This document shows positions 5,216 through 30,570 of a stretch of DNA of 42,416 nt, piece after piece. The stretch is from Calothrix membranacea FACHB-236. Lineage in GTDB: Bacteria > Cyanobacteriota > Cyanobacteriia > Cyanobacteriales > Nostocaceae. How positions within the stretch are numbered: the first letter of the stretch is position 1; each line of letters starts with the position of its first letter. Both the position numbers and the translations under genes were made by a program. The DNA is taken from the NCBI RefSeq assembly GCF_014696315.1, contig NZ_JACJPX010000071.1, forward strand, positions 1 through 42,416, in the 5' to 3' direction. The notes below the pieces were generated by a model. The model was not told the origin of the DNA, did no database searches, and saw only the letters and a program-made list of their open reading frames with translations.

Positions 5216-5992
5216 ATGCCACCATCTTTAACTATTCTCCATAGCTTACTTCTATTCAGTACCGCTTTCATTGCAGGCGGACTGAATGCTGTAGCAGGTG
5301 GTGGAAGTTTCATCACGTTTCCAGCGCTGATTTTTACAGGTGTACCGCCAATCGCAGCGAATGCTACAAATAATACCGCTCTTTGGGTAGGTGCTGTGGC
5401 CAGTGCTGGAGCCTACCGTAAAGATTTAGGCATCAAGAGGCAAGTTTTTTTGCTTTTATGTGGCATAAGTTTACTCGGTGGAATTATTGGCTCTTTAGCC
5501 TTGTTATATACATCGGCAGATGTGTTTACAAAGCTCATCCCCTATCTATTACTATCAGCAACCCTAGTATTTACCTTTGGTGACGCTCTCAGAGGATGGT
5601 TGCAGCTTCAAAGTGAGAAGTCAACACCAGAGTCTGTACCTATATTTAACCTAGCCTTGGCGCAATTAGCTATAGCTATCTACGGTGGTTTCTTCGGCGC
5701 AGGTTTAGGAATTTTAATGTTAGCAACCCTATCATTTTTAGGTATCAAAAATATTCATACAATCAATGCCTTTAAAGCATTTTTAGGAAGTTGTATTAAT
5801 GGAATTGCAATTATCCCATTTATTTTTGCAGGCGTAATTGTTTGGCAGCAGGCGATTTTAATGGCTGTGGCTGGTTCTTTGGGTGGATATTTAAGCGCCC
5901 ATTATGCACGTAGACTTAAACCCCAATTAATTCGGAAATTTGTCATCTTTGTTGCCTTCAGTATGACTATCTACTTTTTTGTTCATGGCTAG
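5216..5992 (+). CDS. TauE/SafE-family sulfite/organosulfonate exporter (copy 1)
   Basis: 258 residues, with about eight hydrophobic segments in two related halves. The family signature is seen near the N terminus of each half: AGGLNAVAGGGSFITFPALIF with NATNNTALWVGA (half 1), and IYGGFFGAGLGILML with NAFKAFLGS (half 2). TauE/SafE proteins are inner-membrane anion exporters associated with taurine, sulfoacetate and sulfite metabolism, although several members move other anions. It lies 9 bp after the HAD gene on the same strand. The likely role is efflux of sulfite released by desulfonation, or movement of sulfonates. It is one of three TauE/SafE loci in the window. Confidence 0.88.
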   Translation: MPPSLTILHSLLLFSTAFIAGGLNAVAGGGSFITFPALIFTGVPPIAANATNNTALWVGAVASAGAYRKDLGIKRQVFLLLCGISLLGGIIGSLALLYTSADVFTKLIPYLLLSATLVFTFGDALRGWLQLQSEKSTPESVPIFNLALAQLAIAIYGGFFGAGLGILMLATLSFLGIKNIHTINAFKAFLGSCINGIAIIPFIFAGVIVWQQAILMAVAGSLGGYLSAHYARRLKPQLIRKFVIFVAFSMTIYFFVHG

Positions 5993-9987: not shown

Positions 9988-10792
9988 GTGGATATTTTGC
10001 AGATAATTCTGCTGGCTGGAATATTTTTCTTTGCCAGCATTCTTAGCGTGATTGCTGGTAGCACATCGCTGATTACTGTGCCTGTAATGTTGGAATTTGG
10101 CATAGAACCCCGAACTGCGATCGCTACCAATATGTTTGCATTAACTTTAATGAGTATAGGCGGGACACTACCTTTCATTGGCAAAAAAGTAATTAGCCCT
10201 AAACGCTTACCATTACTAACATTATTAACTATATTAGGGTCATTTTTAGGAGCATTATTGGTACTGATTTTGCCATCTAAATCAATGCCATTGATAATTT
10301 CTGTATCAATGATAGTAGTAGCTATATTATCAGTGTTTAATCGTCATGCTGGAGTCACACCCTCTCAAGTAATACCTCCACGGATTGCATAAATTGCAGG
10401 CTATGTAGTGACGTTTATCCTTGGTATTTATGGAGGTTTTTTTAGTGGTGGTTATGTAACTCTACTCACAGCAGCTTATGTTATGCTGTTTCGGATGACA
10501 TTTGTAGAAGCGATCGCAACTACTAAATTTATCAATATATTTTCTTCCTTAATCGCCACCATCATTTTTTTTACAACAAGGGATAGTAAATTACGATTTA
10601 GGAATAATTCTTGGCACTACAATGTTTATAGGTGGCATAATTGGCGGACGTTTAACTCTCAAATTGAGTAATGTCTGGTTACAACGTATTTATTTAATAG
10701 TAGTAGGTATCCTAGCTTTTGTCACATTGCGGAAATCTCAATCACAAAATCACTCAGCAATTACAATTAATTTATTAACACCTTCAGCTTAA
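9988..10792 (+). pseudogene. TauE/SafE-family exporter, disrupted (copy 2)
   Basis: Recognisable TauE/SafE protein split by two lesions. From the GTG at 9988, half 1 reads FFFASILSVIAGSTSLITVPVML and NMFALTLMSIGG. It stops at TAA 10390-10392, immediately inside a partial duplication (ATTGCATAA followed by ATTGCA, 10384-10398) that looks like a 9-bp insertion. Reading on in the same frame gives the second half (ILGIYGGFFSGGY, ATTKFINIFSS). At a run of eight T (10565-10572) the family match moves to the +1 frame, continuing LGIILGTTMFIGGIIGG to TAA at 10790-10792. Correcting both restores one protein of the usual length. Two independent lesions argue for a real pseudogene, although the T run could be a sequencing error. 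Confidence 0.85.
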
Positions 10793-10950: not shown

Positions 10951-11940
10951 TTATGTTCTCGTTCCTTCTCCGATTTTTTGAATTGCCTTTTGTGCGTAGA
11001 TACTAACTTCCCGATCAGGATCATCTAGTGCTTGTTGTAGGGCGTTGATAGCTTCAGTTTTACCAAAATTACCCAGAGCGATTGCGCGGAGCGCAGTGCC
11101 TAAGGCAATCGCAGCGTCTTTTCTCACATCCGAATATTCATCTGTTAACGCTTCAATAAGTGCAGGTAAAGACTGTGCATCAGGTATTTTCTGTAATACT
11201 TGAATAGCAAATTTTCTTACCTGCCAATGTTCATCTTTAACGGCAATTAATACATGAGGAATAACTTTGGCATCAGCATAAAGCGCTAGAGATTTGGCAG
11301 CATTGCGGCGTACTTGCCAATCGGTATCATTAGTTAATGCATTACCAAGTAAATCTACTATCTCTGCATCTGCCAAATGCCCTAACGTCAGCGCCGCCGC
11401 ACGACGTACATTGTCATCGCGATCGCTCATTAAAGATAAAGCTGGCGGGCATATCTGCACTTGATTGAGATAGCTAAGAGTAGTCACAGCCGCTTCTCGT
11501 AGTTGGGGATGTTCCGAGTTAAAGAAGGATAGCACCGCCGGGAGAGACTGAGCATCATGTATCTTTCGCAACAGAATTAACACATTCAGTTGGAGGTTAA
11601 TATCCGGTTGCTGTAAAGCATCTAGCAACAGCAGCAAATCTTCTGAAGATACCAACTCACCCAAAGCCGATAGCGCCTCACTGCGAACTTCTGCATCTGG
11701 TGAAGCTAAACATGGTAATAAAGCCGGAACAGTGGCGGGATTAGCAATTTCCCAGAGTGCGGTGACAGCGATTTTTTGCACGGCTGTGCTTTCATCTTGT
11801 AAAGCAACAATTAGCGCATCAATTGCCGTCTCATCCCCCAAGTGTTGCAGGGTTTTTACCGCCACTAAGCGATCGCTAACATCAGGCGATCGCAACATTT
11901 CCAACCATTCATTTAATTCAGACTCTATATTTGTTGACAT
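10951..11940 (-). CDS. HEAT-repeat (PBS-lyase-type) protein of the AprA-like cluster
   Basis: 329 residues made almost entirely of about ten HEAT-like repeats of roughly 31 residues (for example DEHWQVRKFAIQVLQKI, ALIEALTDEYSDVRKDAA), each with the conserved Asp/Val/Arg positions of the PBS-lyase HEAT family. There is no signal peptide, so it should be a cytoplasmic alpha-solenoid scaffold or chaperone. It is the last gene of the minus-strand run that includes the AprB-like ferredoxin and AprA-like flavoprotein. The family includes phycobilin lyase subunits, but no phycobilisome gene is nearby. I infer a role in assembling, or acting as a subunit of, the flavoprotein/ferredoxin complex; that is a hypothesis from context. 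Confidence 0.88.
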   Translation of the reverse strand: MSTNIESELNEWLEMLRSPDVSDRLVAVKTLQHLGDETAIDALIVALQDESTAVQKIAVTALWEIANPATVPALLPCLASPDAEVRSEALSALGELVSSEDLLLLLDALQQPDINLQLNVLILLRKIHDAQSLPAVLSFFNSEHPQLREAAVTTLSYLNQVQICPPALSLMSDRDDNVRRAAALTLGHLADAEIVDLLGNALTNDTDWQVRRNAAKSLALYADAKVIPHVLIAVKDEHWQVRKFAIQVLQKIPDAQSLPALIEALTDEYSDVRKDAAIALGTALRAIALGNFGKTEAINALQQALDDPDREVSIYAQKAIQKIGEGTRT

Positions 11941-12065
11941 TGAAGAAATAATTATTAAGTAGAGCGCGATCGCCTTTTAAGTGAGTGAACCACTAATCAT
12001 ACTGTAGGGTAGGCATTACTATTAACAATTGGGCATTGTGTCCCAATTTTTTTGGAACTATATCT

Positions 12066-12293
12066 TTACCTTAATAAGAAAGGAATTTGCACCTTAATGG
12101 CATTTGTTGGACATTCCCTTTCGCAAGGAAGACAAAACCAGCATTCGTCATATTTCATATATGCTTTGCCAGTTTCCGGATTTTTGGCTAGTACATCCAG
12201 TGGACAAACTTCAATACAAACTCTACATTTTTCTAAACATTTAGACTCGTCCACAATCACGGGAACATCTACTCTTTGATTAATTAAAGCCAT
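12066..12293 (-). CDS. AprB-like 2[4Fe-4S] ferredoxin
   Basis: 75 residues with eight cysteines in two cluster motifs. The first is C19-x3-C23-x2-C26-x3-C30-P, with one residue more than the usual CxxC spacing; the second is C51-x2-C54-x2-C57-x3-C61-P. The second half (CWFCLPCERECP, then TNAIKV) resembles the beta subunit of adenylylsulfate reductase. The protein is only half the length of AprB and lacks its C-terminal tail. AGAGG precedes the ATG on the minus strand. Gene order places it with the AprA-like flavoprotein, for which it is the natural electron-transfer partner, although the methyltransferase gene sits between them. A stand-alone bacterial-type ferredoxin is the alternative. Confidence 0.9.
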   Translation of the reverse strand: MALINQRVDVPVIVDESKCLEKCRVCIEVCPLDVLAKNPETGKAYMKYDECWFCLPCERECPTNAIKVQIPFLLR

Positions 12294-12388
12294 GTGATAC
12301 CTCTGTAATTGTTAGTAGATTTTTCTTCTCAGCAATGCCCACCCTACAGCAAGACTAATATTTCACGAAGAATTTATGTATGATATTT

Positions 12389-13186
12389 TTAGTTAACAAT
12401 CTTTGCTTTAAAAAAACGATAACCTGCATCAATTTCTGTAACCTGACGAATATCTCCATACTTTGCATCCCATTCCCCACTACTTAAATCTGCTGCAAGA
12501 GATTTAACACCAGATGCAATTAAATCAGCATTACCTAAAGCAAAAGAAGATATTCCAGCGCGCACTTCTGCTTGAAGATATAACTCAGGTCGTCTCCAAG
12601 CAGCTGCAGCAAATAAATCAGATAAATTGTAGGGTAACATCAAAGGTATGACTTCAATTCTCCTTTGAGTATTCTGCTCAATTAAACTGGTAATTTCATG
12701 CAGTGGGAGAAATTTTAATGCATCTTCCCACATCCAAGGGAAATAATCATATAACCATATTCTTTGAGCAAATCTAATATCAAAACTTAGCAATATAATT
12801 GGCCCATCCCGAATAATCCGGTGCATTTCTTGAAAGGCTTTATCTAAATCCGAAAAATGATGAATTGTCAGAATACTAATCACTCCATCAACAGATTTAT
12901 CGGCTAAAGGTAAAGCTTCTGCATAGCCATTAAACCATTGCACTTGTGGATGTGCTAATGCTTGTTGGCGCATTATCAATGATGGTTCAACCGCATAAAC
13001 AGAAAATCCTCGATTAGCTAGCGCCTGTGAATAACCACCAGTTCCCGCGCCAATATCAGCAATCAGACTACCTGGTGGTAAATTGAGTAAGTCGATTATC
13101 TTCTGCACAATGCGATAGTCAGGGATGCGAGTTGTTGTATATTGTTGACCAATGGAATCATAAAGAGGCATTTGCACATTTCTCAT
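12389..13186 (-). CDS. Class I SAM-dependent methyltransferase of the AprA-like cluster
   Basis: 265 residues with a clear Methyltransf_11 core: LIADIGAGTGGYSQALA (motif I, near residues 41-57), VYAVEPSLIMRQQAL, and VDGVISILTIHHFSDLDKAF. The C-terminal part (WMWEDALKFLPLHE, YLQAEVRAGISSFAL) has no assigned function. It lies 45 bp downstream of the AprA-like gene and 95 bp upstream of the ferredoxin on the same strand. Its placement inside the redox cluster suggests that it methylates a substrate, intermediate or product of that system. A chance insertion cannot be excluded without comparative data. Confidence 0.82.
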   Translation of the reverse strand: MRNVQMPLYDSIGQQYTTTRIPDYRIVQKIIDLLNLPPGSLIADIGAGTGGYSQALANRGFSVYAVEPSLIMRQQALAHPQVQWFNGYAEALPLADKSVDGVISILTIHHFSDLDKAFQEMHRIIRDGPIILLSFDIRFAQRIWLYDYFPWMWEDALKFLPLHEITSLIEQNTQRRIEVIPLMLPYNLSDLFAAAAWRRPELYLQAEVRAGISSFALGNADLIASGVKSLAADLSSGEWDAKYGDIRQVTEIDAGYRFFKAKIVN

Positions 13187-13231
13187 TAATCATTAAAGAA
13201 AAGGTTTATCTGCGGTTAATTATTCATTAAC

Positions 13232-14941
13232 TTATTTAACTGCTACATCATAAACCTCTCTACCTAAATCCACATCCACAATATAAGGTTCAACATCACG
13301 CTTAAATAACACCATTTCCCCCGCTGCATTCTTCTTCAAATTTACATGACAAAACCACTCTTGATTATTCTTCTCAGGAAAATCTAAGTGATAATGATAA
13401 AGCCCCCAACGGCTTTCTCGTCGATATAAAGATGCTCTTGCAGCCATCTCCGCACAATCTCTAATAAAATGCACCTCCATACAGCGCATCAGTTCATGCG
13501 GATCGCGCGCTCCCATTTGCGCCAAAGCGTCATGATAACGCACAAAACTATTCAGCCCAATTTCCATTTTGTAATTTGATTTTGGCGGTTGTAAATAATC
13601 GTTTACTAGTCGCCGTAACTTATATTCAACCTGAGTATGGGGAATGCCATTAGGCTGATTTAATGGTGCATAAATTCTCACTTTTTCTGCATCTAAAAAT
13701 TCAGTATCAGGTTCTAAATGTTCCAAATCTTTGATGTAATCAATTGCATGAGTTCCTGCCAAACGCCCATATACAAATGCCCCAATCATATAGTTATGAG
13801 GAACACTCGCCATATCTCCAGCCGCATACAATCCTGGTACAGTAGTTTCTGCTTTTTCATTCACCCACACACCAGAAGCACTATGTCCACTACACAACCC
13901 AATTTCCGAGATATTCATCTCAATTCCATGAGTGCGGTAGTTTTCGCCTCTACCCTCGTGAAATCTTCCCCGGCTTGGTCTTTCATTTGACCATAAAATA
14001 GACTCAATTTCCGAAATTGTATCTTCATCCAAATGCGTCATTTTTAACTGAATTGGCCCTTTACCAGAGTTCAATTCTTTCCAAATTTCTAGCATCATTT
14101 GCCCACTCCAATAATCACAATTAATGAAGCGGTGTCCTTCTGCGTTGGCAGTATATGCGCCAAAAGGCCCAGCAACATAAGCGCAAGCAGGGCCGTTGTA
14201 GTCTTTAATTAAGGGATTAATTTGGAAGCATTCAATGTTACTTAATTCTGCGCCTGCATGGTAAGCCATTGAGTAACCATCACCCGCATTCGTGGGGTTT
14301 TCGTAAGTCCCGTAGAGGTAGCCTGATGCAGGTAATCCCAACCTTCCGCAAGCACCAGTGCAAAGAATGACGGCTTTAGCTTGGATAACAACAAAATCAC
14401 CACCACGTACATCAAACCCAACCGCACCGATCGCCCTTCCTTCTCTTACCAAAACCCTAGTCGCCATAACGCGGTTGGTAACATTAACTTTATGGCGCTT
14501 CACCTGTCGGGTAAGAATGGTTTTTAAATCTTTGCCTTCAGGCATAGGCAATACATATTTGCCTACCCTATGCACTTGCTTAACATCGTAATTGCCTTGG
14601 GGGTCTTTTTGGAACTTCACACCCCAACTTTCTAGTTCTTGAATAGTTTCATAGCCTAGCAAGGCGGTTTGATAGACAGCTTTTTGATGGAGAATCCCAT
14701 CATTCGCAATGGTGACTTCGCGTACATACTGTTCTGGCGTAGAGTATCCAGGGATAACAGCTGTATTTACGCCATCCATTCCCATTGCGATCGCACCACT
14801 CCGCCGAATATTAGCCTTCTCCAAAATCAGGACATCTGCCGCCGGATTAGCCTGTTTCGCCTTAATTCCCGCCATCGTCCCCGCCGTACCACCGCCAATC
14901 ACTAGTACATCGGTTTTTATCAATTGTGTAGTTATTTCCAT
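13232..14941 (-). CDS. AprA-like FAD flavoprotein (fumarate reductase/APS reductase alpha superfamily)
   Basis: 569 residues. An N-terminal FAD-binding Rossmann motif, DVLVIGGGTAGTMAGIKA (residues 11-28), is followed by RRSGAIAMGMDGVNTAV, which mirrors the RSGAVAQG...NTY region of adenylylsulfate reductase alpha. GRLGLPASGYLYGTYENPT and GLYAAGDMASVPH are superfamily FAD contacts. It is shorter than true AprA (about 640 residues). Because cyanobacteria reduce sulfate through PAPS reductase, a dissimilatory APS reductase role is unlikely. It is preceded in the same direction by an SsuA-like binding protein and followed by a methyltransferase, an AprB-like ferredoxin and a HEAT protein. I infer an oxidoreductase acting on an imported organosulfur compound; the substrate and direction of reaction are unknown. 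Confidence 0.88.
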   Translation of the reverse strand: MEITTQLIKTDVLVIGGGTAGTMAGIKAKQANPAADVLILEKANIRRSGAIAMGMDGVNTAVIPGYSTPEQYVREVTIANDGILHQKAVYQTALLGYETIQELESWGVKFQKDPQGNYDVKQVHRVGKYVLPMPEGKDLKTILTRQVKRHKVNVTNRVMATRVLVREGRAIGAVGFDVRGGDFVVIQAKAVILCTGACGRLGLPASGYLYGTYENPTNAGDGYSMAYHAGAELSNIECFQINPLIKDYNGPACAYVAGPFGAYTANAEGHRFINCDYWSGQMMLEIWKELNSGKGPIQLKMTHLDEDTISEIESILWSNERPSRGRFHEGRGENYRTHGIEMNISEIGLCSGHSASGVWVNEKAETTVPGLYAAGDMASVPHNYMIGAFVYGRLAGTHAIDYIKDLEHLEPDTEFLDAEKVRIYAPLNQPNGIPHTQVEYKLRRLVNDYLQPPKSNYKMEIGLNSFVRYHDALAQMGARDPHELMRCMEVHFIRDCAEMAARASLYRRESRWGLYHYHLDFPEKNNQEWFCHVNLKKNAAGEMVLFKRDVEPYIVDVDLGREVYDVAVK

Positions 14942-14962
14942 CTAATCACCTGAGTTGAGAAT

Positions 14963-15018
14963 GGGGATTGGGGACTGGGGACTGGGGATTGGGGATTGGG
15001 GATTGGGGACTGGGGACT
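14963..15018. repeat. Heptanucleotide STRR array, GGGGAYT x8
   Basis: Eight exact head-to-tail heptads, each GGGGATT or GGGGACT, in the gap between the SsuA-like and AprA-like genes. The arrangement is typical of the STRR class in heterocystous cyanobacteria. The G-rich strand is the one not transcribed into the operon's mRNA, so the operon RNA would be C-rich here. Confidence 0.95.
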
Positions 15019-15049
15019 GGAGGATTGAGGGACAATGAGATAAATTTCC

Positions 15050-15077
15050 ATTACCAATTACCAATTACCAATTACCC
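15050..15077. repeat. Heptanucleotide STRR array, ATTACCM x4
   Basis: Four head-to-tail heptads (ATTACCA three times, then ATTACCC), 31 bp after the GGGGAYT array and 12 bp before the 3' end of the SsuA-like gene. Two different heptad families therefore share a single 148-bp intergenic gap inside one operon. Confidence 0.95.
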
Positions 15078-15089
15078 ATACCCCATTTC

Positions 15090-16199
15090 CTAATTCCGCC
15101 AAACTATGTCCTTAACATTAATTTGCTTCGGTATAAGTTTGATTTTGTAGAATGCATCCGCAATCTCTTGCTGTTTTGCAATTACTTCATCGGTAAGTGT
15201 CAGCACACCATAATCGCGCCGCTTTTCTGCTACCTCTAAAACAGCTGCATCAATACCCAATGTAGGCGAGAGGAATTTCGCCACTTCACTAGGATTATTC
15301 TTGGCCCAGTCACTAGTCTTTTTCACTTCATCTAAAACTATTTTCAAAGTATCTGTATGAGCATCTACAAAAGATTTAGCAGCCAAATAATAACCACGAT
15401 TCGGCGCTAATCCGGTTGCGTCGGTTAAAGTGCGTGCGCCTGTGGCTTTTTCTGCTAAAGCTAAATAAGGGTCCCAAATTGCCCAAGCATCAACGTTTTT
15501 ACCTTCAAACGCAGCACGTCCATCAGCAGGTTGGAGGGTAACTGCTTGGATGTCAGTATATTGCAATCCGGCTTTTTCTAGAGCTTTCACTACTAGGTAG
15601 TTCGTGTTAGAACCTTTGGCGAAAGCCACTTTTTTACCTTTGAGATCCGCCACTGTTTTAATCGGAGAATCTTTGTGAACAAGGATGGCTTCAGCTTTCG
15701 TACTCCAAGGATCGTAAGCTACATAAACTAAAGGCATACCTGCAGCTTGGGCAAATATTGGTGGTGATTCTCCTGTGTAGCCGAAGTCTATACTACCGGA
15801 GTTGATAGCTTCTAACATTGGTGGGCCTGATGGAAATTCACTCCAGGTAACAGAAGCACCCGCAGCTGCCAAAGCCTTTTCTAAATCTCCTCTGGTTTTC
15901 AATGCGCTTAAAATAGTTCCCGCTTTCTGAAATCCGATTCTAACTGCATTACTACTAACTGCTGGACTTTGATTAGGTGTTGATGTTGCCTGTTCTGTGG
16001 GTGTTGTTGTTGCTTGCTGCGTTGTGCTGGAAGAACAAGCGGAAACAAATAAAACTAAACCAAGACCCACTGCAAACAATAAAGAAAAAAGCCGGATTCT
16101 TCTGTGCTGAAAGTTCTGGAAAAAGCGGAGAAAAATGTTTAATATTCGAGATAGAAAGCACTGGGACAACATAAATACTTTGCTTCTAATGGTAAACAC
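15090..16199 (-). CDS. ssuA: SsuA-like sulfonate ABC transporter substrate-binding lipoprotein (copy 1)
   Basis: 369 residues. A basic N terminus and hydrophobic segment lead to a lipobox ending FVSAC with Cys55, so the mature protein is probably membrane-anchored in the periplasm. A Ser/Thr-rich linker follows. The type-2 binding fold starts at VRIGFQKAGTILSALKTRG and includes MLEAINSGSIDFGYTGESPPIFAQAAG, the aliphatic-sulfonate branch signature, then ADLKGKKVAFAKGSNTNYLVVKALEKAG and VDAWAIWDPY. It heads the minus-strand run with the AprA-like gene, which makes it the probable importer component for that system's substrate. The long N-terminal extension suggests a later Met (for example residue 10) might be the true start. 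No permease or ATPase is adjacent. Confidence 0.88.
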   Translation of the reverse strand: MFTIRSKVFMLSQCFLSRILNIFLRFFQNFQHRRIRLFSLLFAVGLGLVLFVSACSSSTTQQATTTPTEQATSTPNQSPAVSSNAVRIGFQKAGTILSALKTRGDLEKALAAAGASVTWSEFPSGPPMLEAINSGSIDFGYTGESPPIFAQAAGMPLVYVAYDPWSTKAEAILVHKDSPIKTVADLKGKKVAFAKGSNTNYLVVKALEKAGLQYTDIQAVTLQPADGRAAFEGKNVDAWAIWDPYLALAEKATGARTLTDATGLAPNRGYYLAAKSFVDAHTDTLKIVLDEVKKTSDWAKNNPSEVAKFLSPTLGIDAAVLEVAEKRRDYGVLTLTDEVIAKQQEIADAFYKIKLIPKQINVKDIVWRN

Positions 16200-17159: not shown

Positions 17160-17951
17160 CTAATAGACTAACTTTAAGCTGACCATCATTAATAGAGAGT
17201 AAATAATAAATCGCAATGGTTTCTGCGGCGCAATTTGACAAACTTTAGCCCCAATTAATACTCCTGGTACAGAACCAAACCATATAGGTAATACTAAATT
17301 CCAATCGACAGTTCCTAAGGTGAGATGTCCTAAGGCAGTGAAGAGTAAGAGAATTGCTGCTTGGGAAATATCTGTACCAACTAACTTCCTAGCATCTAAG
17401 CGGAAAAATGCAATTAGTACTAAAGCAAACATCGAACCAGAAGCGACACTTGTGAGACTGACAATACAGCCTAACAATGCTCCTATGCTGACAGTCTGTA
17501 AACGCCCTAGTTGAGTGTTCAAGTCAAATTTGGGCAGTTCGGGTAATTTGACCTGTGGAAAGAAAGTCAACAGCAGCATTTGCAGCAACGCCAAAAATGT
17601 AACTAACAAAATTGTGGCACCCAGCAAGTGCAGCATGAATTCATTGAGGTTATTCTCGGCCCGCATTTTAATCAGGTGCAATATCCCCACCCCAAACAGA
17701 GAACCAGGAACACTTCCCAAAGCCAGCCATTTTACCACTTCAGCATCTAGGGTTTGTTGCTGCCAGTGTTTGATTCCACCTACGACTTTCATTAACGTCG
17801 CCGCTACAACATCAGAACTGACTGCTACAGCAGGTGGGACTTGAAAAACAAATATCAACATCGGCGTGATGAGAGAAGCACCGCCAATTCCTGTCAGACC
17901 TACAAAAATACCAACTAAAAAGCTGAATAAAGGCAATAAGAAAAAATCCAT
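17160..17951 (-). CDS. TauE/SafE-family sulfite/organosulfonate exporter (copy 3)
   Basis: 263 residues, about eight membrane segments. The first-half signature is FLVGIFVGLTGIGGASLITPML followed by VAVSSDVVAATLMKVVGG; the second-half signature is IGALLGCIVSLTSVASGSM with GTDISQAAILLLF. An extended hydrophilic loop sits between the halves (near residues 125-150). It is a more distant relative of copies 1 and 2. It is convergent with the preceding methyltransferase gene (46 bp apart). A composite regulatory motif in the correct orientation lies about 130-160 bp upstream. Probable role: sulfite or sulfonate efflux during sulfonate use. Confidence 0.87.
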   Translation of the reverse strand: MDFFLLPLFSFLVGIFVGLTGIGGASLITPMLIFVFQVPPAVAVSSDVVAATLMKVVGGIKHWQQQTLDAEVVKWLALGSVPGSLFGVGILHLIKMRAENNLNEFMLHLLGATILLVTFLALLQMLLLTFFPQVKLPELPKFDLNTQLGRLQTVSIGALLGCIVSLTSVASGSMFALVLIAFFRLDARKLVGTDISQAAILLLFTALGHLTLGTVDWNLVLPIWFGSVPGVLIGAKVCQIAPQKPLRFIIYSLLMMVSLKLVY

Positions 17952-28401: not shown

Positions 28402-30570
28402 TCAAATTTGATAATCTAACCTCACTAAAACTTTGCCTCCGCGTTGGTTGGCGGGTACGGCTTCCGACATCTTTTGCGGATAAGGAAGGTTCAAATTGTT
28501 CATCAGTTCAATAAATTGGCTGCGGGTGCGTCCCAAAAACCGGGGATTCCAGCGTTTTTCTTCACCAATTGTCGATACTGTTCTACCTTGATAGTCGTGT
28601 CCGGGAAATACCCATGTGTCATCTGGTAAGGTAAATAGCTTTTGGGTGACGACATCATACAATAACCCAGGATTACCGTTTTGGAAGTCGGTACGACCAC
28701 AACCCCCTATAAATAAAGCATCTCCAGTTAACAAGTAAGTACCGTTAACGAGGTAAGCCATATGAGAATCGGTATGTCCGGGAGTAGCGATCGCTTGAAT
28801 TTGTACAGAACCTAATTGTAAAATCTCACCATCAGCAATATAGCGATCGCTCGGCACAGTCTTATCTGGTGAAACACTCCAACAACCTGTAAATTGTCTT
28901 AGCTGAGCTGTTCCGGTAATATGGTCTGCATGAATATGGGTTTCTAAGCAGTAAAGTAAAGTCAAATCCAGTTTTTGCAAAACTTGCAAGTCGCGTTCTA
29001 CCTGTTCTAGTACCGGATCTACCAAAATTGCGGCTTTGGTTTGGGGATCAGCAATTAGGTATGTATAGGTACATGATTCTCGATCAAACAGTTGACGAAA
29101 TAGCATGGCAGGTTTGGGGAAATCGCTCAATGGATGGAGAGCGAACCAATCTCTTTCCATAGCGTAGGATCTAGGATTGAGAGATTTCAGTAACTCTTGA
29201 GCCAAAGCTGCTGCTTGAGAGCGAATTTCTGGAACAGCTGTAGTTTCCCAAAGGTCGCCTTTGCGTGGTGTTCCTAGAGTATAAAGTATGTCGGAAACTT
29301 TTCCTTGAGCATTAATTACCGCACCGTTGGCGGCTGTATCAATCCCCATTGATAACGCATGAGGGTGAATCAATCCTTGTGCTTGTAAGCTGGTAACCAG
29401 TAGATTTTCTAACCTCTTATAGTTGCAATTTGAACCCGTGCAATTAACAATTCGGTTCACCTGCAAAACAATCTCTGCTTGGGTTCGCCGTTCACAAATT
29501 TTCACTTCAATTGCATTGTCCACTTCCTGACAACTCTGAATCCGCCCACCATAATAATTTAGTTGACCAGATTGGAGTGTGCTATCTAATAGTTCAGCAA
29601 TTTCTCCTGCAATTCGGTGGCGATAAACTTCCCAGTAAGCTTTGATATGGCGGAGAAAGCGCTGCTGTTCTGCAAATGGTAGTGTTTGCCAAAGTTGTTG
29701 AGTAAGTGGACGCATAGCATCAATTACCGTGCGCCAATCATAACCGTAAATAGCTGCTGTTTTAATTTCTCGGCGTACTAAGCGCAGTAATCCCCGCGCA
29801 GTTTTTGGTGCAGTTTGCAAGTCCAGATATTCAGGATAATAAATTGTAGCTTGGTGGCTTTGAGGGGTTAATCCATGACGAGAAACAGCATGAATTTTTC
29901 CCCGGAATCCTTGCTGATTTAAAGCCACAACTGCATCAACCATTGTTAACCCAGTTCCTACTAACAGAATAGAATCATCTGGGCGCAGATTGCTAATTGC
30001 ATCAGTTGACCAAGCATCTTTAACATTGGGATGATTATTTCCTAGCGCTGCAATAGATTTTGGTAATGAAGCTGGAAAATTCCCCAAAGCGAGTACAACT
30101 TTTTGCACGTGCAGAGATTTACCGCTACTTAGTTGGATTTCGGTGTTATAGGTGGTGGTTTCAATAGCGATCGCTTCATCGTAAATTCTCTCTAAGCTTA
30201 CATGAGTTGGGGCATTGGCTTCAGCTTCATTTAAAATCCCCTGTATATACTCTCCATACACCTGACGCGGTGCAAATGTCGATGCAGTAGCGTCGGTATA
30301 TCCATTTTTATGCAGCCAGGTTAAGAAGTGTTTGGGTTTATCTGCAAAAGCACTCATCTTTCCGGCTGGTACGTTCAGCAAATGTCCTGCAACTGGCGTA
30401 CTATATGCGACTCCTTTACCAATTTCTGTTCTCCGTTCAATTAACTTAATGGAAATTGGTATGGTTGCATTTCGCAAAATATGGGCTGCAACAAGAGAAC
30501 CACTAAACCCACCCCCAATAATTGCGATCGCCGCAGGAGAAACAGTTAGGTTCAAAATATAGTTGTACAT
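28402..30570 (-). CDS. YdhS-like FAD/NAD(P)-binding domain fused to an ETHE1-like persulfide dioxygenase
   Basis: 722 residues. Domain 1 (about 12-465) is a YdhS-type FAD/NAD(P)-binding protein: IAIIGGGFSGSLVAAHIL at 16-32, HLLNVPAGKMSAF at 63-75, a second Rossmann motif ILLVGTGLTMVDAVVAL at 201-217, and RIVNCTGSNCNY. Domain 2 (about 488-722) is a metallo-beta-lactamase fold of the ETHE1/persulfide dioxygenase branch: H545-I-H547-A-D549-H550, H599 in TPGHTDS, D617 in the branch-diagnostic GDALFIGGCGRTDF, and WVFPGHDY at 653-660. Persulfide dioxygenases oxidise glutathione persulfide to sulfite using a single iron. Known relatives of this enzyme are often fused to rhodanese domains; this redox-domain fusion is unusual. 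One continuous frame with no internal stop. Confidence 0.88.
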   Translation of the reverse strand: MYNYILNLTVSPAAIAIIGGGFSGSLVAAHILRNATIPISIKLIERRTEIGKGVAYSTPVAGHLLNVPAGKMSAFADKPKHFLTWLHKNGYTDATASTFAPRQVYGEYIQGILNEAEANAPTHVSLERIYDEAIAIETTTYNTEIQLSSGKSLHVQKVVLALGNFPASLPKSIAALGNNHPNVKDAWSTDAISNLRPDDSILLVGTGLTMVDAVVALNQQGFRGKIHAVSRHGLTPQSHQATIYYPEYLDLQTAPKTARGLLRLVRREIKTAAIYGYDWRTVIDAMRPLTQQLWQTLPFAEQQRFLRHIKAYWEVYRHRIAGEIAELLDSTLQSGQLNYYGGRIQSCQEVDNAIEVKICERRTQAEIVLQVNRIVNCTGSNCNYKRLENLLVTSLQAQGLIHPHALSMGIDTAANGAVINAQGKVSDILYTLGTPRKGDLWETTAVPEIRSQAAALAQELLKSLNPRSYAMERDWFALHPLSDFPKPAMLFRQLFDRESCTYTYLIADPQTKAAILVDPVLEQVERDLQVLQKLDLTLLYCLETHIHADHITGTAQLRQFTGCWSVSPDKTVPSDRYIADGEILQLGSVQIQAIATPGHTDSHMAYLVNGTYLLTGDALFIGGCGRTDFQNGNPGLLYDVVTQKLFTLPDDTWVFPGHDYQGRTVSTIGEEKRWNPRFLGRTRSQFIELMNNLNLPYPQKMSEAVPANQRGGKVLVRLDYQI

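Follow-up and report, generated by a model that had tools for sequence, protein, structure and literature searches.

We identified five intact open reading frames (ORFs) on the minus strand between positions 10951 and 16199 of a contig of the cyanobacterium Calothrix membranacea FACHB-236 (NZ_JACJPX010000071.1), whose full analysed length of 42,416 nucleotides is here called the window. They encode, in this order, an SsuA-type substrate-binding lipoprotein, a flavin adenine dinucleotide (FAD) flavoprotein, an S-adenosylmethionine (SAM)-dependent methyltransferase, a small ferredoxin and a HEAT-repeat protein, are separated by intergenic gaps of 148, 45, 95 and 125 bp, and agree in place, strand and order with a first-pass annotation made from the letters of this DNA (Table 1). 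The host genome has a size of 8.8 Mb in 164 contigs; the closest named relatives are Nostoc, and Nostoc linckia FACHB-104 has a 99% identical flavoprotein. We read the five genes as the Nostoc-type version of a conserved, widely distributed module, probably one for sulfur acquisition. Its flavoprotein is most likely an enzyme of the clade of AprA, the alpha subunit of adenylylsulfate (APS) reductase, with a different, fixed substrate.

Table 1. Genes of the five-gene run and a nearby exporter gene (aa, amino acids).
Feature	Position	Strand	Evidence or remark
SsuA-type (NMT1 fold) substrate-binding lipoprotein	15090..16199	-	TIGR01728 match; probable dedicated receptor in Nostoc-type loci
AprA-clade FAD flavoprotein, 569 aa, core catalytic subunit	13232..14941	-	NCBIfam PRK08275 (NF006131)
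SAM-dependent class I methyltransferase, lineage-specific insert	12389..13186	-	Methyltransf_11
AprB-like 2[4Fe-4S] ferredoxin, 75 aa, eight Cys, core electron carrier	12066..12293	-	invariant Cys and Trp52
HEAT-repeat protein, 329 aa, core third component	10951..11940	-	PF13646, 7 stretches
TauE/SafE-type exporter, possible accessory only	17160..17951	-	PF01925, 139 bits

The flavoprotein scored 1009.8 bits against its NCBIfam model (cut-off 587) and 923.7 bits against the HEAT-fused sister model PRK13800 (cut-off 1196). Outside this family the next model, with 311.3 bits (cut-off 557), was one for the alpha subunit of APS reductase, and scores stayed below the cut-offs of aprA (185.5 of 641.75), nadB (108.5 of 452.75) and all further succinate dehydrogenase (SDH)/fumarate-reductase models (no more than 154 bits where 567 or higher is required; TIGR01812, 142 of 567.3). 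The closest PDB sequence was the alpha subunit of the 3'-phosphoadenylylsulfate (PAPS) reductase of Methanothermococcus thermolithotrophicus (MtPAPSR, 8a8o; E 3.2e-67), followed by AprA (2e-46). Foldseek likewise ranked 8a8o first, with APS reductase and fumarate reductase close behind, using a structure model with a mean predicted local distance difference test score (pLDDT) of 66.6, a predicted template modelling score (pTM) of 0.75 and much of residues 205–354 below a pLDDT of 50. In a tree of 25 proteins (505 columns), in which AprA was represented by its N-terminal stretch only and the TcuA branch was very long, the window family, MtPAPSR and AprA formed one side (support 90). The other comprised AsfA (represented by the sequence of Cupriavidus metallidurans CH34), SDH, L-aspartate oxidase (NadB), a further CH34 flavoprotein and TcuA (support 96 for AsfA with SDH). 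Models, PDB sequences, tree and fold thus place the flavoprotein on the AprA/PAPS-reductase side and not with fumarate reductase or L-aspartate oxidase, the placement that would have refuted the first-pass annotation. The GANRLxSN motif, which we take to be the carboxylate-binding motif of the fumarate reductase/SDH group, was found in the host NadB and is absent from the window flavoprotein, which has PHNYMIGAFVYG; SDH and NadB are encoded elsewhere in the host genome, each above its own cut-off. No dsrA above the cut-off was found in that genome (best match 28 bits of 392.85). The Pfam domains of the flavoprotein are FAD_binding_2 and Succ_DH_flav_C; Pyr_redox_2 also reached 36.7 bits (cut-off 26.1), with no single stretch passing, over residues 11–197, which are the same FAD-binding part, and the Pfam search detected no second NAD(P)H domain. 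Because the Pyr_redox_2 match covers only the FAD-binding part, a classical NAD(P)H-ferredoxin reductase is unlikely, and by analogy this domain make-up casts doubt on the 'reductase' label of AsfA as well.

Substrate-contact residues were surveyed in an alignment of 89 members of the flavoprotein family with Archaeoglobus (Af) AprA and MtPAPSR (Mt). The likeness to AprA did not extend to the sites of Af AprA that we take to be APS/sulfite contacts, which were replaced in all 89 members: Arg265, Trp234, Tyr235 and Phe277 correspond to Leu244, Tyr213, Glu214 and Val256, each in 89/89, and Glu141 and Leu278 to Lys121 and Ala257 at two positions that vary across the family. Invariant were Asn59 (Af Asn74), His353 (Mt His346) and the dinucleotide-binding glycines of the FAD site, and a nearly invariant loop at 127–136 (GxYVLPMPEG) occupies the place of part of the AprA substrate loop. 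Mt Lys120, Arg121 and Ser122, given as specificity residues in an excerpt of the MtPAPSR study that also names roles for Mt Trp206, Tyr207 and Trp42 and Af Gln145 (PMC10322725), align with Val123, His124 and Arg125 and are not kept, in a loop whose alignment is uncertain owing to an insertion. Mt Trp206 and Tyr207 are Tyr and Glu in the flavoprotein, in which Leu also takes the place of the Mt Arg that aligns with Af Arg265. Since the contact positions carry other invariant residues, APS or PAPS is probably not the substrate.

Eight cysteines and Trp52 are kept in all 81 family ferredoxins. In equal-length alignment coordinates, which give a position match and not a PDB residue-letter match, Trp52 coincides with residue 42 in the small subunit of MtPAPSR (8a8o_C) and with residue 48 in Archaeoglobus AprB (1jnr_B). 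Trp42 has been proposed for electron transfer in MtPAPSR, in a passage that does not name the subunit, taken here as the small one (PMC10322725). The ferredoxin scored 32.4 bits against TIGR02060 aprB, far under the cut-off of 135.65, and its top NCBIfam model was HgcB. The earlier description of this protein as AprB-like is borne out by the retained Trp, and the AprB label draws on Trp52, the flavoprotein partner and a moderate match.

The HEAT protein matches positions 609–896 of PRK13800, the C-terminal third of this flavoprotein-HEAT fusion model, and in Tsukamurella, the one actinobacterial locus examined, the flavoprotein and HEAT repeats form a single protein of 893 aa in the PRK13800 arrangement. 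The natural fusion suggests that the HEAT protein is a fixed physical partner of the flavoprotein; the role of scaffold, earlier assigned to it, is one of several options. Trp208 and Trp239 were present in 77/77 aligned HEAT proteins. A phycobilin lyase was considered and rejected for the HEAT protein (52–84 bits against cut-offs of 220–600; the same HEAT family occurs in proteobacteria).

A scan of genome contigs returned at least 591 encoded relatives of the flavoprotein, of which the best 80, a selection biased to close relatives, were kept (46 cyanobacterial and 34 proteobacterial loci, numbered with the prefix L). Their neighbours were assigned by BLASTP (E ≤1e-8, identity >30%) using as references the window proteins and the proteins of nine annotated plasmid loci, a tenth, L095, being left out. 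The family ferredoxin was near the flavoprotein in 76/80 of these best loci, and so was the HEAT gene. The four loci without them all lie at contig ends: L051 ends at the flavoprotein, L087 has a cut flavoprotein, L034 ends 1.6 kb past it, and L016, with a spread-out Anabaena layout, ends 5.3 kb past it. A stricter set of 71 loci, which drops five further loci with a called ferredoxin ORF of >130 aa, had flavoprotein, ferredoxin and HEAT genes co-stranded throughout and in that order in 69. In a separate genome sample that gave 17 matches, 12 loci were surveyed, with the ferredoxin in 11 and the HEAT gene in 11; the sole miss, L144, ends ~3.5 kb past the flavoprotein. The grouping of these three genes is not due to chance, and they occur together across Cyanobacteriota, Pseudomonadota and Actinomycetota, and so beyond close relatives; confinement to these would have refuted the first-pass annotation.

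Module hosts include cyanobacteria, rhizobia, Burkholderia relatives, sulfur oxidisers and actinobacteria; alphaproteobacteria, Acidithiobacillus and Actinomycetota were added by annotated plasmids. The flavoprotein family was present in 17/386 sampled cyanobacterial genomes, and 51 of 57 matching records of a plasmid collection, some of them chromosome-sized, had ≥60% identity to the flavoprotein; the family is thus patchy in its distribution and probably mobile. Contigs of Prochlorococcus single cells (L049, L050) carry it with a long ABC (ATP-binding cassette) importer and YeiH-like and LysR-type genes. In an Anabaena-type locus (L067, 14833–17294) the flavoprotein and HEAT genes are separated, within the run, by an O-acetylhomoserine sulfhydrylase-type gene and metX, and L014, L017, L143 and L145 have the same layout as judged from ORF size and a metX match.

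The window receptor scored 249.7 bits against TIGR01728 (cut-off 163.5) and just missed the narrower PRK11553 (294.3 of 299). SsuA-type receptors were near the module in 26/46 cyanobacterial loci. An SsuA-type gene (≥55% identity to the reference set) lay directly upstream and co-directional in 18/46, so that its place at the head of the run, on which the first-pass annotation had built, holds for only some of the cyanobacterial loci. A long SsuA-like receptor was present in 31/34 proteobacterial and 11/46 cyanobacterial loci; its scores for SsuA, 133.6 and 114.4, stay short of the required 163.5, and no close relative of it was found in the host genome (11 matches, 23–41% identity). In one such receptor (L097, 2996–4462; 488 aa) the C-terminal part gives a weak NosL-like match (E 5e-5). 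The gene immediately upstream of that for the flavoprotein was a divergent long LysR gene in 18/46 loci of cyanobacteria, and in 29/34 loci of proteobacteria it was a GntR gene. The one long LysR protein scanned (L097, 7682–9682) has a weak NMT1-like C-terminal match under the Pfam cut-off (E 3e-4), as if the regulator bore its own copy of the receptor fold. A gene for an Mrp/NBP35-type carrier, which NCBIfam names an Mrp iron-sulfur carrier, accompanied 39/46 cyanobacterial modules, and a gene for DUF971, a domain presumably linked to iron-sulfur carriers, 30/34 proteobacterial ones. The methyltransferase was found in 11/46 cyanobacterial and 0/34 proteobacterial loci and is a lineage-specific insert outside the core. 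The Mrp/DUF971 partner escaped the first-pass annotation, as did AsfAB, a separate family that was already known.

Beyond these five genes, the window forms an organosulfur island. A profile search found two NtaA/DmoA-type flavin mononucleotide (FMN) monooxygenases above the model cut-off and, below cut-offs, one SfnG-like monooxygenase and one DszC/SfnB-like oxidoreductase. The window also has three SsuA genes including that of the run and, assigned by eye, an SsuB-like ATPase and a second TauE-type exporter at 5216–5992. The TauE/SafE-type gene of Table 1, which a plus-strand methyltransferase-like gene separates from the five-gene run, possibly belongs to the module. By eye, two adjoining plus-strand ORFs at 9988–10671 (134 and 87 aa) resemble one broken TauE-type exporter gene. 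The protein at 28402–30570 begins with a FAD/NAD(P)-binding part, recognised by eye and from the way a relative is annotated, and ends in a metallo-beta-lactamase part that resembles sulfur transferase/dioxygenase and GloB families; it is possibly a persulfide dioxygenase fusion.

At about even chances, we propose that the module is a ferredoxin-fed organosulfur-acquisition oxidoreductase that releases sulfite-level sulfur from an imported sulfonate-like compound, with the substrate and direction both inferred. From the gene context, an SsuA-type ABC importer would bring in an organosulfur compound, most likely sulfonate-like. The flavoprotein and small ferredoxin would pair up in the cytosol as in AprAB, as homology and the conserved Trp suggest. 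Electrons would flow from cellular ferredoxin or NADPH to the small ferredoxin and on to FAD, a route suggested by the lack of a second NAD(P)H domain and by the FdxA and ferredoxin-NADP reductase (FNR) genes or NADPH-type flavoprotein genes beside some relatives. The reduced flavin would attack the oxidised sulfur, and the resulting sulfite, a product level to which the YeiH/TauE exporters beside some cyanobacterial modules point, would be assimilated or exported. The HEAT protein, with Mrp or DUF971, may load the clusters of the ferredoxin, given these neighbours and the analogy to MMS19; the eukaryotic MMS19/NBP35 arrangement resembles such an iron-sulfur loading unit. The earlier idea of an AprAB-type oxidoreductase recruited for an imported organosulfur compound is thus supported in part, by its AprA-side flavoprotein, AprB-type Trp and organosulfur-import setting. 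Only tentatively, and with more doubt than confidence, do we extend the proposal to an O2-independent reductive desulfonase, in which an AprA-derived flavoenzyme and AprB-like ferredoxin would cleave the imported sulfonate via a flavin N5-sulfite adduct and HEAT-Mrp/DUF971 would be a dedicated bacterial iron-sulfur loading unit. If true, reductive sulfonate cleavage would be an O2-free desulfonation route and a new use of the APS-reductase fold, with chemistry distinct from that of the FMNH2 monooxygenases and TauD dioxygenases of the same neighbourhoods. The substrate can be found by way of the conserved pocket and of the genes for receptor and regulator that are linked to the module.

Several observations weigh against a ferredoxin-fed release of sulfite from a sulfonate. 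No module-linked Mrp gene was found in the host genome, where the single Mrp homologue at E ≤1e-20 sits elsewhere and is 54% identical. Exporters were in the minority (YeiH in 9/80, TauE in 5/80 and TauE2 in 4/80 loci), and FdxA (10/34) and a large NADPH-type flavoprotein (9/34) were confined to proteobacterial loci, with neither in the 46 cyanobacterial ones. The top PDB matches of the ferredoxin were polyferredoxins and not AprB. NMT1-fold receptors also carry non-sulfur ligands. Flavin-sulfite chemistry could have been lost along with the equivalent of the AprA Arg, the poorly predicted stretch 205–354 makes the pocket geometry of the flavoprotein model unreliable, and electron flow could be reversed.

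Reversed flow would make the flavoprotein a sulfite- or thiol-oxidising or dehydrogenating enzyme that passes electrons to ferredoxin, for example detoxifying sulfite from neighbouring monooxygenases. We regard this as rather unlikely, although dissimilatory APS reductases are reversible according to an excerpt of PMC10322725, luciferase-like (LLM) monooxygenases able to release sulfite lie in the same window, and the YeiH or TauE genes beside some modules of other cyanobacteria fit sulfite stress. A dedicated importer is near-constant in proteobacteria (31/34), and the FdxA and NADPH-type flavoprotein by the module of some sulfur oxidisers fit electron supply better; in Methylobacterium, FdxA and ferredoxin-NADP reductase adjoin it. 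In Acidithiobacillus (L093, 10574–14035) the module is accompanied by a 1153-aa PRK06567-like protein, below the model cut-off, with glutamate-synthase-small-subunit-like and FNR-like parts and relatives in 9/34 proteobacterial loci; it is possibly an NADPH-ferredoxin electron supply.

Doubtful, too, is that the imported compound is not organosulfur but, for example, contains nitrogen or phosphorus or serves as precursor of a cofactor, with the sulfur context being incidental. The NMT1-fold receptors are promiscuous as a group, the long receptor falls under the SsuA cut-off, and GNAT, HAD, VOC and amidase genes occur in some loci; TauD, NtaA/DmoA, MetX/MetY, YeiH, TauE and AsfAB, however, recur in unrelated lineages, each in a minority of loci. 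The best evidence for an organosulfur role comes from AsfA, which was found in 21/386 sampled cyanobacterial genomes and in 11 of the 17 module carriers, where 0.92 were expected (hypergeometric 6e-12, with kinship ignored). These 11 genomes are all from the same taxonomic family as the host of the window, and AsfA was without a match in the six carriers outside that family. Four of them (G022, G149, G153, G340, all within the family) have AsfA and the flavoprotein within ~20 kb on one contig. In our view this co-occurrence and linkage make it probable that the module serves organosulfur use, and they speak for a separate recruitment of two branches of the flavoprotein superfamily.

AsfAB itself is assigned in the literature as electron supply for oxygenolytic arylsulfonate cleavage, and an asfA mutant of Pseudomonas putida S-313 was unable to use aromatic sulfonates (PMC4267179 for the mutant). 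We located it in C. metallidurans CH34, where asfRAB lies on the second replicon and AsfA and AsfB are Rmet_4334/5 according to part of PMC2864759, with six TauD genes as markers for matching positions to the Rmet numbers of that source, a calibration that interpolates Rmet_4334 near 923 kb. A FAD-ferredoxin pair at 927.9–929.9 kb (549-aa FAD protein, 111-aa ferredoxin), with an SsuABC-type transporter ~2 kb away on the other strand, is by position AsfAB, the Rmet tags not being in the record; the same calibration ruled out a TcuA-like ORF at 793.5 kb. CH34 AsfA and the window flavoprotein are 20.1% identical over 512 positions, on separate branches, and CH34 AsfB lacks the AprB-type Trp (CQTC). 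Two further AsfAB-type flavoprotein-ferredoxin pairs are encoded on other contigs of the host genome, C81 (L126, 7946–10042), where an SsuA-like receptor gene follows, and C86 (L127, 401–2403). On plasmid C of Sinorhizobium americanum (L131, 9001–18505) AsfA, AsfB, DUF971, flavoprotein, ferredoxin and HEAT genes form one run, after which come a Crp-type regulator, encoded on the other strand, and the long ABC importer; the corresponding AsfA match of S. fredii (L130) is split into three pieces.

That the module is simply the cyanobacterial AsfAB is improbable. The two agree in setting and in being built of two parts, P. putida S-313 needs AsfA on genetic evidence to use arylsulfonates (PMC4267179), and AsfAB adjoins the module in Sinorhizobium. 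Against this, AsfA is on the SDH/fumarate-reductase side, the host has its two separate AsfAB-type pairs, the Sinorhizobium HEAT gene comes after the window-type flavoprotein, and no HEAT gene is listed in four annotated AsfAB loci, from incomplete plasmid gene tables. Filing the module as AsfAB was rejected once the CH34 pair was located and the tree built. Highly improbable is a fumarate reductase/SDH flavoprotein or L-aspartate oxidase, as the name of the best NCBIfam model would have it, in view of scores far under the cut-offs of those families, the absent GANRLxSN and the separately encoded SDH and NadB.

The module is genuine and broadly conserved, related to known enzymes, and apparently undescribed and misnamed in databases. 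The window flavoprotein belongs to the same protein family as PRK08275/PRK13800, of which PRK13800 is the HEAT-fused form; among titles and abstract openings of the open-access literature we found no description of this 'AprA-like' system. Its 'fumarate reductase/succinate dehydrogenase' name is unsupported by residues or context, which together with the conserved gene surroundings indicate that the family so named is probably a sulfur-acquisition enzyme. MtPAPSR, the best match in sequence and fold, likewise combines an FAD subunit with a 2[4Fe-4S] subunit, but the window module adds the HEAT protein, Mrp/DUF971 and the ABC importer and does not keep the MtPAPSR specificity residues. With AprAB of Archaeoglobus (1jnr/2fja) it shares fold, FAD site, the Asn74 equivalent and the AprB-type ferredoxin core, whereas the window ferredoxin has 75 aa instead of 150 aa, the APS-contact positions are replaced and the host has no dsrA above the cut-off. 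AsfA/AsfB of P. putida S-313 and C. metallidurans (Rmet_4334/5) resemble it in an FAD protein with a small 2[4Fe-4S] ferredoxin, nearby SsuABC-type transporters and a role in sulfur acquisition; the window family, in contrast, lies on a separate branch, and its ferredoxin has the AprB-type Trp that CH34 AsfB does not.

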